Source of the DNA: Caenorhabditis elegans
Lineage: Eukaryota > Nematoda > Chromadorea > Rhabditida > Rhabditidae
Length of the DNA: 64,000 bases
Reading direction: 5' to 3'
NCBI RefSeq assembly: GCF_000002985.6
Contig: NC_003281.10
Span: 8,246,001-8,310,000, forward strand
The position numbers and the translations under genes are program-made. A model generated the notes under the pieces. The model did no database searches, was not told where the DNA came from, and was given only the letters and a program-made list of their open reading frames with translations. Below, piece after piece: positions 57,101-63,675 of this stretch. Position 1 is the stretch's first letter; each line of letters starts with the position of its first letter.

Positions 57101-59571
57101 ATCCACGAAACATATGGCATTTGACCTCACATTACTCATTACAGGTCTCACCAAGAAATGGAGAATTAAATGCAGAAGAAGCAAAAGCTCAGAAGATTCG
57201 TCAGGCTCTTGAGAAGATGAAGGAGGCCAAGGTGACCAAGATTTTTGTGAAATTTTTTGTGGAAGACGGAGAAGCACTTCAGTTGCTTATTGATGAACGA
57301 TGGACTGTTGCAGACGTAAGCGGATTTTTGAAAATATAAAAGAAACTTTAATATGTTGGTTTTCAGACTCTGAAACAGTTGGCTGAGAAGAATCATATTG
57401 CATTAATGGAAGACCATTGTATTGTGGAGGAATACCCCGAACTTTATATAAGTATGTTATGATTCATGTTTTACTTTCTGAGTTTTGTCTCAAAAATTAA
57501 TATAAGCTTCCATGTGCGTGATACATGCCTACCTACACGCTGGCAAATACTTTTCCTGAAAGCGCCCTGCAAATCTAATTTTACACACTTAATAACCTCA
57601 TTGTTTGGTAATATGACGTCACTCATGGTACTTCACAGGAATTTAACCCTAACATGATTGTGACGTCATATTTCCAAAAATCAGGCTTACCATGTGCTTG
57701 AGATATCAATCTAGATGGTTCACTGATAACTAATTGATCTACTTTGTCAACAACAAAATTGCAACCCTTCCCAAATTCTAATTTTTTCACGGCTAGAGAG
57801 GCATAAAAATATAAAAAACTTTAGTGGAAGATCTAATGGAAAATTTAATTTTAGAACGAGTGTACGAAGATCACGAGAAGGTTGTTGAGAATATCCAAAT
57901 GTGGGTTCAAGATTCACCGAACAAGCTTTATTTCATGCGTCGCCCGGACAAGTACGCCTTCATCTCTCGTCCTGAACTCTACCTCCTCACTCCAAAAACT
58001 TCTGATCACATGGAAATTCCGTCTGGAGATCAATGGACAATCGATGTGAAACAAAAGTTTGTCAGTGAATATTTCCACCGTGAACCAGTAGTACCACCAG
58101 AGATGGAAGGATTTTTATATTTGAAATCAGATGGAAGAAAATCATGGAAAAAACATTATTTCGTGTTAAGACCAAGTGGTTTGTATTATGCACCAAAGAG
58201 TAAGAAACCAACAACAAAAGATTTGACATGTCTGATGAATTTACACTCGAATCAAGTTTATACTGGAATCGGATGGGAGAAGAAATACAAATCACCGACT
58301 CCTTGGTGTATTTCAATAAAATTGACTGCATTGCAAATGAAGAGAAGTCAATTTATTAAATATATTTGTGCTGAGGATGAGATGACATTCAAGAAATGGC
58401 TTGTTGCACTTAGAATAGCTAAGAATGGAGCAGAACTTCTTGAGAACTACGAAAGAGCTTGCCAAATAAGAAGAGAAACTCTTGGACCAGCATCAAGTAT
58501 GTCTGCTGCTTCATCTTCAACTGCTATTTCTGAAGTTCCACATAGTTTGAGTCATCATCAGCGTACACCTTCTGTTGCTTCATCAATTCAATTGAGTTCT
58601 CATATGATGAATAATCCAACGCATCCTTTATCAGTGAATGTCAGGAATCAGTCACCAGCTTCTTTTTCAGGTAAGAATATTTAACTACCGTATTTCTTCT
58701 ATTAATATGGCCTCCCTATTAGACTTGCACTCCCTATTAGTGTTGCACTCCCTAATAGTCTTGCGTCTACTTTTTTTGGTACAAACCTACCTCACTAATT
58801 TTGAGATTTTTACAACATTTTTTGCCTACTTTGCAACAAATTTTTGGTAAAATTTCTATGGAATTGAAGTTATTGTACCTTTTTGTTGCAATTGCAATCA
58901 AAATTTCTGAATTTTTACATAAGATACGAGTTTTTTCAGAAAAAAATAGTAAGCTCAAAGTCAGAAAAATGTTCTGAAAATTAGTATTGCACTCCCTAAT
59001 AGTCTTGCACTCCCTATTAGTATTGCAAGCGGGAAGACCATCGAAAAATAGTATTGCAGCCATATTAATAGAAGAAATACGGTATTTTTTTGGAAATCCT
59101 CAAATTTCAATTTGATATAATTTCAGTAAACTCTTGCCAACAATCTCATCCATCTCGAACGTCAGCGAAATTAGAGATTCAATACGATGAGCAACCGACT
59201 GGAACAATCAAAAGAGCACCTCTAGATGTGCTCCGTCGAGTATCAAGAGCTTCCACCTCGTCCCCAACGATTCGTAAGTTGTTTTTTATTTAGAATTTCC
59301 CCCATAAAATATTATTTCAGCCCAAGAAGAATCGGATTCGGACGAAGAGTTTCCAGCGCCACCTCCAGTTGCCTCTGTGATGAGAATGCCGCCACCAGTG
59401 ACTCCACCAAAGCCTTGTACTCCATTAACTTCTAAGAAAGCACCTCCACCGCCTCCGAAGAGATCTGACACAACAAAATTGCAATCAGCTTCACCTATGG
59501 CCCCGGCGAAAAATGATTTGGAAGCTGCGTTGGCGAGAAGGCGTGAGAAAATGGCAACCATGGAGTGTTAG
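33108..59571 (+). CDS. mig-10: MIG-10, RIAM/Lamellipodin-family adaptor with RA and PH domains
   Basis: The long form uses exons 33108-33181, 36109-36358, 48037-48160, 54350-54445, 54570-54730, 56014-56178, 57145-57315, 57367-57451, 57855-58670, 59127-59273 and 59321-59571, giving 779 aa. Starting at the ATG at 48049 gives 667 aa; a separate first exon at 54213-54273 gives 650 aa. The common part has a Ser/Asn-rich linker, then a Ras-association domain ([36 protein letters not shown]). A PH domain follows ([29 protein letters not shown] ending in a [11 protein letters not shown] helix). The C terminus is proline-rich (APPPPPKRS). The protein relays netrin and Slit guidance cues to actin assembly through Ena/UNC-34 and ABI-1. 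Introns 1-3 are 3, 12 and 6 kb. A polyadenylation signal is at 59805-59810. Confidence 0.97.
33182..36108 (+). other. mig-10: mig-10 intron 1
   Basis: 2.9 kb without a supportable gene or RNA; AT-rich. Mammal-style or fly-style promoter signals cannot be judged by eye. Confidence 0.4.
36359..48036 (+). other. mig-10: mig-10 intron 2 (11.7 kb), probably regulatory
   Basis: No gene is supported on either strand. Visible items are a 19-nt poly-G tract (46543-46561), a GATC/AGATCT-rich palindromic patch near 41408-41437, an inverted GGCGG ... GGCCGCC patch near 43394-43412, and long pyrimidine-rich tracts. Such a long intron between alternative starts probably carries tissue-specific enhancers (inference). 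Confidence 0.4.
46543..46561. repeat. 19-nt uninterrupted poly-G tract
   Basis: Nineteen consecutive G on the plus strand inside mig-10 intron 2, in an otherwise AT-rich setting. It is a potential G-quadruplex and a candidate dog-1-dependent deletion hotspot. Confidence 0.9.
48037..48160 (+). CDS. mig-10: mig-10 internal exon with alternative start codon
   Basis: The exon can be read through from the upstream exons (phase 0, PSVT in front of the methionine) or started at the ATG at 48049, which has a strong CACCATGG context. The encoded [20 protein letters not shown] is the N terminus of the 667-aa form. Confidence 0.8.
48161..54212 (+). other. mig-10: mig-10 intron 3, containing the promoter of the third 5' start
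   Basis: No gene is seen. It holds a dispersed GGTAGGTAGGC/CGCCTACC inverted repeat (about 52895-52945), a GC-rich hairpin (53527-53556), and tandem TTTTTGATAATAATTGACAT copies (about 53656-53717). The right end should carry the promoter for the exon at 54213. Confidence 0.4.
53527..53556. repeat. GC-rich hairpin in mig-10 intron 3
   Basis: CCGTGGACCGC and GCGCGGCCCACG are near-perfect inverted copies around a CTCCG loop, standing out from AT-rich intron sequence. The flank has clustered TACCGTA/TACAGTA pieces typical of worm dispersed repeats. Confidence 0.5.
54213..54273 (+). CDS. mig-10: Alternative first exon of mig-10
   Basis: ATG at 54213 opens [20 protein letters not shown], 20 codons plus one base, followed by a GTATGA donor. 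The phase matches the next exon at 54350, so the C completes a Gln codon (QSADWQL). It is 6 kb downstream of the previous exon and must use its own promoter. The product would be 650 aa. Confidence 0.75.
54731..57144 (+). other. mig-10: mig-10 introns around the exon at 56014-56178
   Basis: Two introns of about 1.3 and 1.0 kb flank the short serine-rich exon. No additional gene or repeat stands out. Confidence 0.4.
57452..57854 (+). other. mig-10: mig-10 intron between RA-domain exons
   Basis: 403 bp; contains two copies of TGACGTCA-like sequence (near 57614 and 57661), otherwise nothing recognisable. Confidence 0.4.
58686..59084. mobile_element. TA-flanked inverted-terminal-repeat MITE in mig-10 intron
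   Basis: The left end TACCGTATTTCTTCTATTAA continuing TATGGC (58686-58711) is exactly mirrored at 59059-59084. With the flanking TA on each side this looks like a Tc1/mariner-type non-autonomous element of about 400 bp. Inside, GCACTCCCTATTAGT-type units are repeated five or six times near both ends. No transposase ORF. Confidence 0.8.
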
Positions 59572-59838: not shown

Positions 59839-61421
59839 TCAATTGTTAAAGTTGATAGAAATCGTTCGAGTTGGGGTATACTTTTCACATTGAATCGAAC
59901 TGGCTTCAAGCATCTCGAGAATTTTTAATTCTTTTGTTGTTGTCGGCGAGTTCCAGTGCCAAATTTTCGATATTTTCAAATTCAAAATCTTCTCCAAACA
60001 GTGACTACAATCGGGAAAACTTGAGGTGTATATGATACAATCCATTCCGTTGTGGGATTTATTTTCCAATTTTTGAAGTGCAACTGATATTCCACAGTTG
60101 CATACATTGGAATTTGACGGAAGAAGCTCTGCAATAACATGAATTAATATTATTTAAACATTTTTATAATTCTACAGTACCTCCTGCGTATCCAGACACA
60201 ATTTGGTAGTGTTCTTGATCTACGATGTAGCATCCATCGGGTCGTTTTACTGTACTCATTTCACTCAGCATTCTTGCCATATACATGTGATGTTGATGCC
60301 ATGTTATATAATCGAGTCGTTTACCGGTTGGACCGAGGTTTGATTCCAAATTGGCCTGTAAATTTGAAGAAAAATTTGAATTTGAAATTTGAAGAATTAG
60401 AATCAGATCGATAATGTCTTGAAATTCATTTAGGGAACGATTTTTGTTTTTTGATTATGTGTTCAAATATTGATTGAATTTTTCAAAATAATATCTATAT
60501 TTGTTTTCTTGGGCATAATTATGCAACTTTTTTCGAACGAGGACCGAGAAAAAATGCGAAAAATCGGTGTTTGCACACAATACACCGCATTTTACGACAT
60601 TTTGTACTTGCTTTGTTTTCTTGTGTTTTTCACCGATTTTTCCCGTGATTTCTTATTAAAACTGATAAATAAATATTTTTGTTAATGCTAAAATAATTTC
60701 CAGATGAAAAAATTGTGAATTCAGTCGGCAAGTAGCGGTAAAAGTGGTCAATGTAATATGATGGATTACGGGAATAAAAAACCCAAACTTTTTCCCAAAC
60801 ATGACACATATGCTGTTTAGATGCTAAAAGTACCTGATTATCATAACGAGACCGCTGAAAAAGTTTTGAGATTTTCAAAATTCAACTTTTTTTGTGAAAA
60901 AGTCGAGATTTTGGCACAAAATGTTGAATTATGAAAATCTCAAAACTTTTTCAGCGGTCTCGTTATGAAAATCAGGTACTTTTAGCATCCAAACAGCATA
61001 TGTATCATGTTTGGGAAAAAGTTTGGGTTTTTTATTCCCGTAATCCATCATATTACAGTGACCACTTTTACCGCTACTTGCCGACTGAATTCACAATTTT
61101 TTCACTTGGAAATTGTTTTAGCATCTGCAAAAAATATTTATTTATTAGTTTTGATAAGAAAAAACGGAAAAAATCGGTGAAAAACGAAAGAAAACACGCA
61201 GAAAACAAAGCAAGATAAATGGCCGCTGAAATTTGTCGGGGACTCGGTCATGGCCTAGAAACCTTTTTGCCTCGTCCCTCGTTCGAAAAAAGTTGCAGCA
61301 TAAAGGAAAAATAAAAGTCGAGTGAAACAATTTCTAATAAATAATACAACAAATATATAATTACCTCTGCAGAAACACTCGGCAACTCGTATCTCACTGT
61401 CGGCGACTCAACATTTGACAT
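59839..61421 (-). CDS. dCMP-deaminase-like protein lacking catalytic residues (pseudoenzyme)
   Basis: Minus-strand exons 61421-61365, 60355-60181 and 60128-59839 encode 173 aa, close to deoxycytidylate deaminase (~178). The fold order matches: DYITWHQHHMYMARMLSE aligns with the first helix (DYLEWPEYFMAVAFLSAQ in human DCTD), CYIVDQEHYQIVSGYAGG with the strand pair ahead of the active site, SFPDCSHCLEKIL with the PCxxC zinc site, and KISKIWHW ... CEKYTP with the C-terminal end. The zinc cysteines are kept (C118, C121). The HxE motif that supplies a zinc ligand and the proton-shuttling Glu is Asn-Cys-Gly (88-90). Deamination is therefore unlikely; a regulatory or structural role is inferred. 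Intron 1 holds a large fold-back repeat. Confidence 0.8.
60517..61303. repeat. Fold-back element of about 790 bp in intron 1 of the deaminase-like gene
   Basis: Two arms of about 375 bp (60517-60893 and 60930-61303) are near-identical inverted copies separated by about 35 bp. The inner ends share AAAATCTCAAAACTTTTTCA and the following GCGGTCTCGTTATGA; the outer ends share TGCAACTTTTTTCGAACGAG. Because of the symmetry, the same spurious ORF (KISKLFQRSRY) appears on both strands. Transcribed, it would make a long hairpin RNA. Confidence 0.85.
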
Positions 61422-61657: not shown

Positions 61658-62409
61658 ATGAATAATTTTCTGAAACACAATGATTGGGCAAGAGATCCTG
61701 CATTCAATCATTTCTGGAGACACTATGACTTTTCGAATCAATGGATAAAGCAACATACAGATGCATCACGTCAAGGTAATTGGTTAGCTTCTGTTCTTAA
61801 AATGTTGTATATTTTCAGTTCAAATGCAAATGGTCCAGAGAGATAATCTTTCGACTGAACAATGTTTTAGTGACTCTGAAGAGCCGGAAGTGATCGAAAG
61901 ACTTTCTCGGTGTGAAATATATAGTGAAATTGAGAATGAAGAATCAGATATTGAAGAAATGAGTGAAGAGATGAAAGCATTTTTTGCAAAAACACAAGAA
62001 CATCGTCAAAAGTGTAAGTTTAATCGGAATTAGACGAATATTTGTTTTAAATAACTTTGTTTATTTCAGTAAAAGAACAAAGAGCGGCAGAAAAACGGAA
62101 AGAAGGGCAATCAAGTTCAAAAAGTCAAGAGGAATACGTTAACGTTGATAAAAGTAAGAAAATTGGTTTATTTAACGGTTTGATAAATTTTAATGGGCAT
62201 TTTTAGTTAGTATACGTGGGCGTATAGAGCAATCAACGGATCACCGAAACGCCAGCGCCGAATTCATAGCAAAAAGAGAGAAAGCGAAAAAAGATTACGG
62301 AGAATCAGCGACAAAGATTCTAGCAATGGAAAGTACATTGGCAATGAAGTTTGAATCCGAATATTCACAAAATCCTCAGCTCTGGCCTAATATTCCATTC
62401 AGATTTTGA
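61658..62409 (+). CDS. GEMIN8-like SMN-complex protein
   Basis: Exons 61658-61775, 61819-62013, 62070-62153 and 62207-62409 encode 199 aa. Four blocks match vertebrate GEMIN8 in order: an aromatic N-terminal block FWRHYDFSNQWIKQH (residues 19-33; human YWQHYHQAMAWMQSH), an acidic helix EEMSEEMKAFFAKTQEHRQK (85-104; human EITEELRQYFAETERHRE), YVNVD (127-131), and the C-terminal block KKDYGESATKILAMESTL (160-177) ending LWPNIPFRF (human YWPVIPLKF). GEMIN8 links GEMIN6/7 to SMN in the cytoplasmic complex that loads Sm rings on snRNAs. The RPA43-like gene starts 140 bp downstream and is probably in the same operon. Confidence 0.8.
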
Positions 62410-62530
62410 CTATTCTTTATATGAAGCTAAAAGCATTTTTCGTGTCTACTGTATTTGTTTTTATGCACTGGTTTTCGAGCCGAAAATGTTTACCTGTTTC
62501 GTTAATTATTTCATATCAAATGTTTACCAA

Positions 62531-62538
62531 TCTTTACA
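62531..62538 (+). promoter_or_regulatory. Probable SL2-type trans-splice acceptor of the RPA43-like gene
   Basis: TCTTTACAG ends at 62538, 129 nt after the GEMIN8-like stop codon and 11 nt ahead of the downstream ATG. This is normal spacing for C. elegans operons. Confidence 0.55.
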
Positions 62539-62549
62539 GAATTGTAAAA

Positions 62550-63675
62550 ATGGGAAAGAAAAAGTTTATCGAGAACGAGGATGGAACTACAGAAGTCCAG
62601 GAAACAGAAAGTGAAGCACCAAAGGATAAAAAGGAGAAGAAAGAATATCGATTGAGAACTCTTGGAGCAAACATTAAAACATCAAAGAAAAGTTTCAAAG
62701 AACAATTTTTCATGAATTATGAAGATGGACTCAAACTAATCAAAAAGATGCGCGGAAAGGGAAAAGGAGGTCAACTCGTTCAAAAAGTGATGCCACGTCA
62801 TATCTCCTTACCTTATCACATGTCTGGAAAAGCTGCAATGGAAGAAGCATGTGATTGGATTGCTCAAAATACTGTCGGAAAGTATAGAAAAGAGTAAGTT
62901 GATGAGTTAAAATATACAAAGAGTGTTAATTTTTAATTTTTATTCGTTATTCTCAAGAAAAACATTTTTTTGTATAATGATATGAATGCTGAAAACTGAA
63001 TAACGATTTTATAATTCACAACGAATATTTATTTTTGATTTCAGATACAAAGGAATCGTCGTAGCCGTTGGAAGTGTCGATCTTGCATCTGCGCCACGTG
63101 TCATTTCCGACCAATATGCTTTCCATACCGATGTTGCAATTAATCAAATTGTTTTCATGTAAGATTTTGAATTTTCATAGGGAATTCATTTATTTTTAGA
63201 CTATCAAAAATGATTCTCGTAATTTCAATAGTTTTGAATTAATTTCCAGCCCAAAAATCGGAGATCAATACGAAGCAAAAGTGAAATATGTGCAAGAAGG
63301 TCTTATGGTCGGTGTTGTCATGGATATGATCACAATTCACATTAAGCAGAATGACAAGACTTCAGGTAAATGAAAATTAGACTATTTGAAAACGGAGAAA
63401 TTTTCAGAAGATCAAGTTGCAATTGATGACAAGATTCTAGTGAAATACAGCGGAATCCGAATCAAAAGTTCATTATGTCACTTGAAAGGAGAATATGTGA
63501 AAATGATTGAAAAGTGGGTTCACATTGAAGATTATTATTATTAAAAACTAATATTTTATTTTTCAGAGCCGAAATAAAAGAAGAAGAAGAAGTAGAAGAT
63601 GAAGCCGATGAAGAAACGGATGTGAAGGAAAAAGTAAAAGAAGAAGAAGATGAAGATGAAGACATGGAAGAATAA
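62550..63675 (+). CDS. RPA43-like RNA polymerase I subunit
   Basis: Exons 62550-62893, 63045-63158, 63250-63365, 63408-63513 and 63567-63675 encode 262 aa. After a Lys/Glu-rich N terminus, the core has RHISLPYHMSGK, a helix, then YKGIVVAVGSVDLAS, DVAINQIVFIPKIGDQYEAKV and VGVVMDMITIHI. This matches the tip and OB parts of RPA43/POLR1F (HIALSPRYL, YDNIKVVGEL, EADFVIFCPEPGQKLMGIV, HIGCLVHG). RPA43 pairs with RPA14 to form the Pol I stalk that binds RRN3. The C terminus is an acidic Glu/Asp/Lys tail. An acceptor (CTTTACAG, ending 62538) sits 11 nt ahead of the ATG and 129 nt behind the upstream stop, as in worm operons. Confidence 0.78.

Follow-up and report, generated by a model that had tools for sequence, protein, structure and literature searches.

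The question raised by this locus is whether Caenorhabditis elegans, a model for spinal muscular atrophy, possesses a clear Gemin8, the small adaptor expected between the two halves of the SMN complex, by which splicing particles are assembled, and whether the gene forms an operon with its downstream neighbour. The window, i.e. the whole stretch of DNA that was analysed, comprises 64,000 nt of contig 3; its features are listed in Table 1. According to the accessible part of the source, Gemin8 joins SMN to Gemin6/7 in fission yeast and human, and in fission yeast the two halves are linked via the first 58 residues of Gemin8 and the SMN YG box (PMC8287938). The worm complex, as far as the available texts go, is discussed via SMN-1, SMI-1/Gemin2 and Gemin3 (MEL-46), while homologues of Gemin6 and Gemin7 occur in one paper (PMC5482996). 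A preliminary description of this DNA had presented Gemin8 as an extension of a worm complex made up of SMN-1, SMI-1 and Gemin3, a framing that is partly outdated, since worm Gemin6 and Gemin7 homologues were already named in 2017, when they were tested by RNAi together with the Gemin2 homologue; Gemin8 is absent from every mention of 'gemin' in the available text of that paper (PMC5482996).

Splicing of the four exons yields a single open frame from start to stop codon, with introns of 43, 56 and 53 nt that all follow the GT...AG rule (3/3). The spliced protein contains the motifs FWRHY...WIKQH, SEEMKAFFAKTQEHR, YVNVD, KDYGESATKILAME and WPNIPF, and the coordinates, the length of 199 amino acids and the motifs quoted in the preliminary description all proved correct.

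Table 1. Positions of the GEMIN8 gene, its neighbours and the SMN-complex partners located elsewhere in the genome (window numbering unless a contig is named).
Feature	Position	Strand	Content
Window	contig 3 (NC_003281.10), 8246001-8310000	+	64,000 nt
Divergent neighbour	59839-61421 (ends read from sequence)	-	dCMP/cytidine deaminase-like, PF00383 E 1.5e-9
GEMIN8 open reading frame	61658-62409	+	ATG at 61658, stop ends at 62409; four exons, 199 aa
GEMIN8 exon 1	61658-61775	+	start codon, N-terminal aromatic block FWRHY...WIKQH
GEMIN8 exon 2	61819-62013	+	acidic region, contains SEEMKAFFAKTQEHR
GEMIN8 exon 3	62070-62153	+	contains YVNVD
GEMIN8 exon 4	62207-62409	+	predicted Gemin7-docking helix, WPNIPF, stop codon
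Intergenic gap, GEMIN8 to second gene	62410-62549	+	140 nt, sequence layout
Second gene	62550-63675	+	262 aa, five exons, Rpb7-like, probably Pol I subunit RPA43
Second-gene exons	62550-62893, 63045-63158, 63250-63365, 63408-63513, 63567-63675	+	
Gemin7 gene	contig 3, about 11780235-11780975 (1249-1989 of extracted locus)		92 aa, PF11095
Gemin6 candidate	contig 1 near 4580028 (1495-2060 of extracted locus)	-	169 aa, Gemin6_C

A profile search of this product against the Gemin8 family gave a match above the curated cut-off: Pfam GEMIN8 (PF15348) scored 56.3 bits with an E-value of 6.5e-15, the cut-off being 29.7 bits. The other Pfam matches of the whole protein, GLTSCR1 and PhaC_N, are both far under their cut-offs. 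The protein was also scanned against Pfam as three overlapping pieces, which aligned in profile order with the N- and C-terminal blocks both present: the N-terminal piece with positions 2-35 of the GEMIN8 profile (19.1 bits) and the middle piece with 105-163 (15.6 bits), each under the cut-off alone, and the C-terminal piece with 187-229 (32.2 bits), the only one to exceed it by itself. In the acidic, lysine/glutamate-rich middle piece, GLTSCR1 reached 20.6 bits, which is under the cut-off of that family yet above the GEMIN8 score there, and the N-terminal piece gave 15 bits with PhaC_N, under its cut-off and weaker than GEMIN8. Because of these additional matches, the two ends are regarded as the diagnostic parts of the GEMIN8 match. 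Among the scrambled controls, one reversed and eight shuffled, GEMIN8 was found in 0/9 at E-values up to 10, a limit to be read in the knowledge that the HMMER filters discard most matches above E ~0.1. That the match is a by-product of charged, coiled composition in a protein that is no Gemin8, as the higher GLTSCR1 score of the middle piece (both scores under cut-off) might suggest, is hardly credible because of the scrambled controls and the three-piece scan, in which the C-terminal piece passes alone and the order is kept. A six-frame search of the genome (E up to 0.001) located GEMIN8 at a single place, exon 4 of this gene. The earlier assignment as a GEMIN8 homologue is thus strongly supported by the profile comparisons, and automatic annotation has very likely labelled the gene already, as the protein passes the Pfam cut-off.

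Partners of the SMN complex were searched for in the same genome, and Gemin2 (SIP1) and the SMN YG box were both detected by profile search; the second of the two places found for the YG box (17.9 bits) is attributed to chance. With the Gemin7 profile (PF11095), two exons exceeded the Pfam cut-off, and the spliced worm Gemin7 scores 100.5 bits against this family and matches the human Gemin7 chains 7bbl_D (E 5.3e-8) and 1y96_B (E 6.4e-8) in the PDB. A third place on contig 5, with an internal stop and 18.8 bits, is likewise attributed to chance. The Gemin6 candidate reached 26.9 bits with Gemin6_C in the genome search and, after splicing, 25.1 bits with an E-value of 1.4e-5, which is under the cut-off of 33.4 bits and concerns the C-terminal domain only. 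The three weaker of the four Gemin6_C places in the genome were set aside as chance matches, and the sole PDB match of the candidate (E 0.77) is unrelated. The Gemin6 family PF06372 matched nowhere in the genome; because its controls gave nothing either, this result is no evidence of absence.

In the accessible text of one paper, Gemin6-7-8 is described as apparently lost from Drosophilids and earlier fly assignments as mistaken (PMC6385987). Diagnostic residues are therefore needed to support such a label, and for this reason the contact residues were checked here. In human, as far as described in the available text, the C-terminal segment of Gemin8, a helix-turn-helix in the crystal, packs against helix 1 of Gemin7, and Gemin7 R63 forms a salt bridge with Gemin8 E216 (PMC8287938). 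The human contact residues were taken from this source, and the residues it names served as anchors for numbering the PDB fragments. Worm Gemin8 retains Y205, I212, M215, E216 and F223 (Y163, I170, M173, E174 and F181 in the worm), with R203, A218 and V219 altered, and worm Gemin7 retains Q56, A60, R63, L67 and L70 (Q13, A17, R20, L24 and L27), with L71, F92 and L97 altered. Identity to human is therefore 5/8 at the contacts of Gemin8 compared with 6/21 at the other aligned positions of the segment, and 5/8 at those of Gemin7 compared with 23/73 elsewhere in the alignment. The two residues that form the R63-E216 salt bridge in human are both conserved in the worm pair. This provides residue-level support, short of proof, for the same docking of Gemin8 on Gemin7 as in human.

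A phmmer search of worm Gemin8 against the PDB returned two hits up to E 10, the second of which is the human Gemin8 peptide 7bbl_E; its E-value of 0.39 is not significant alone, and it aligns with worm residues 156-184, at the corresponding segment. The top hit (E 0.06), an NTF2-like chain, is unrelated. A single-sequence structure model of exon 4 gave one long helix with a mean pLDDT of 84.6 and a pTM of 0.42, which differs from the helix-turn-helix of the human crystal and is taken to indicate a helical tendency, nothing more.

From these comparisons we infer how the protein would bind its partners and take part in Sm assembly. The C-terminal helix of Gemin8 would most likely dock on worm Gemin7 at the N-terminal helix of the latter, and Gemin7 in turn would pair with Gemin6; the N-terminal aromatic block would most likely bind the YG box of SMN-1. 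By analogy with human and fission yeast, Gemin8 would then most likely bridge SMN-1 to Gemin6/7 and so hold the Gemin6/7 dimer on the SMN-1/SMI-1 core, which is expected to load Sm rings onto snRNAs and, in nematodes, onto spliced-leader RNAs. We assign a probability of about 0.88 to the reading that the gene is the C. elegans Gemin8 orthologue with this tethering function and the probable first cistron before a probable RPA43. It is quite improbable that the protein is a Gemin8 descendant inactive in the worm SMN complex, one that has, for example, lost SMN-1 binding and acts only with Gemin7 or elsewhere. Three of the eight contacts are altered on each side, Gemin6 is barely recognisable and the SMN-binding part scores low by itself (19.1 bits); however, conservation extends to the residues of the salt bridge and to the N-terminal block, and Gemin7, Gemin2 and the SMN YG box are all present in the genome. 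In a muscle mitochondria assay, RNAi of the worm Gemin2, Gemin6 and Gemin7 homologues gave no suppression, according to the available text (PMC5482996); this assay does not measure snRNP assembly.

Worm Gemin8 appears to be little studied, while the family is well known. In the parts covered of the literature on gemin8 and elegans (PMC8395208, PMC7692393, PMC3771687, PMC8287954, PMC3877121), no mention of a worm Gemin8 was found, and the same holds for the covered parts of the literature on gemin8 and nematodes. Worm phenotypes are tabulated for Gemin2 and Gemin3 in the accessible portion of one source (PMC4197776), and one worm paper, in the portion available, describes smi-1 as the Gemin2 orthologue in its text and as Gemin5 in its abstract. 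A Gemin8 in the worm makes it testable how important the module is for the assembly of the spliced-leader particle, which is a natural test for this protein. In addition, the worm could serve as a simpler genetic model for Gemin6-7-8, the Drosophilids apparently being without the module, as far as the source is available (PMC6385987).

Over the 64-kb window, Rfam gave 0 matches at gathering scores. The protein of the divergent neighbour contains only CxxC, and neither the HAE/CAE nor the PCxxC motif was found in it, so that judging from its motifs it is possibly catalytically inactive. Nested inverted repeats at 60522-61297 form a near-palindrome of ~0.78 kb, with inner arms of 225 nt at 60676-60900 and 60909-61133 that are 93% complementary and further arms at 60614-60680/61130-61196 and 60522-60554/61265-61297; this looks like a fold-back transposon-type element and appears to lie in intron 1 of the divergent neighbour. 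On the plus strand, the frames at 57815-59571 combine a PH-like stretch with a proline-rich tail and may resemble mig-10.

The protein encoded downstream of GEMIN8, described earlier as a Pol I subunit, gave no match to Pfam up to E 1. Its residues 86-198 match the NCBIfam model NF006333 (Rpb7-type RNA polymerase) with an E-value of 0.0012 and 18.4 bits, the cut-off being 143. In an hhalign comparison with aligned RPA43 sequences from human, fission yeast and budding yeast (7ob9_G, 7aoc_G, 2rf4_A), the probability was 40.6% and the E-value 2.9e-4, and the alignment covers the same region as the Rpb7-type match. The likeness to RPA43 of these three species comprises 90 aligned columns with 21% identity, and the worm alignment ends before their conserved SHIG...FNASI block. 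A second NCBIfam match, ferrichrome porin (E 0.032), and the sole PDB match, agrin (E 1.9), were dismissed as chance. The genome search with SHS2_Rpb7-N found two strong places, both elsewhere, and the downstream gene was absent from its matches. These two places presumably encode the subunits of Pol II and Pol III, so that the Pol I one is unaccounted for and RPA43 becomes the likeliest label for the downstream gene. The genome search with RPA43_OB gave no match, which is no evidence of absence because its controls matched nowhere.

From these profile matches we regard the downstream gene as fairly likely to be RPA43, so that the label of a Pol I subunit stands as probable but weak, given an Rpb7-type match far under its cut-off, an hhalign probability of 40.6% and an empty Pfam search. 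Another divergent Rpb7-like or OB-fold protein is a possible, less favoured identity: the empty Pfam search, the hhalign probability of just 40.6%, the Rpb7-type score far under cut-off and the position outside the two SHS2_Rpb7-N places all suit it, whereas the RPA43 alignment falling in the region of the Rpb7-type match and the Pol I gene left over by the two strong places elsewhere speak against it. The probable RPA43 gene may be F10E9.4, an OB-fold gene for which RNAi leads to slow growth and larval lethality, according to the available text (PMC3636199). F10E9.11 is listed as a CCDC59 match.

The ATG of the second gene at 62550 lies 140 nt past the GEMIN8 stop, and a TTTACAG acceptor at 62533-62539 precedes it by 10 nt. 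The gap contains a TATGAA hexamer at 62420; a UAYYUU element was not found in these 140 nt, and in the 237 nt that precede the start codon of GEMIN8 neither TTTTAG nor TTTCAG was found as an acceptor. A spacing of 140 nt and a TTTACAG acceptor fit known C. elegans operons. The layout is consistent with SL2 trans-splicing of the second mRNA, and the two genes probably form an operon, as had been proposed, with GEMIN8 as its first cistron; spacing and acceptor support this layout, on the basis of sequence only. It is unlikely that the two genes are mere neighbours with separate promoters, which would suit a gap with just the hexamer in place of UAYYUU but not the 140-nt spacing and the acceptor 10 nt before the second ATG.

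The preliminary description had gone further and linked snRNP and ribosome production through the shared operon. This is speculation; no test result supports a functional link, and the most likely reason for sharing the probable operon is housekeeping expression common to both genes, not a direct link. A stronger version, in which the Gemin6-7-8 module chiefly supplies SL1/SL2 particles and the pair of Gemin8 and Pol I subunit was kept to match ribosomes to snRNP capacity, is highly improbable. If it were true, a shortage of Gemin8 would lead to less Pol I subunit, because the second cistron needs SL2 particles; a shortage of SL2 would be felt to some extent by all downstream cistrons, and what sets this version apart is the idea that the two genes stayed together for the coupling.

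The known systems to which the proposed worm Gemin8 can be compared are those of fission yeast and human. For Schizosaccharomyces pombe Gemin8 (SPBC16H5.15), the comparison is one by description: the same bridge from the SMN YG box to Gemin6/7 is expected, and the available text calls this protein weakly conserved with the human one (PMC8287938). Human Gemin8 (PF15348; PDB 7BBL chain E) can be compared by residue. The worm protein matches the family over its whole length and is identical to the solved human peptide at 11/29 aligned positions; R203, A218 and V219 differ, whereas Y205, I212, M215, E216 and F223 are shared.
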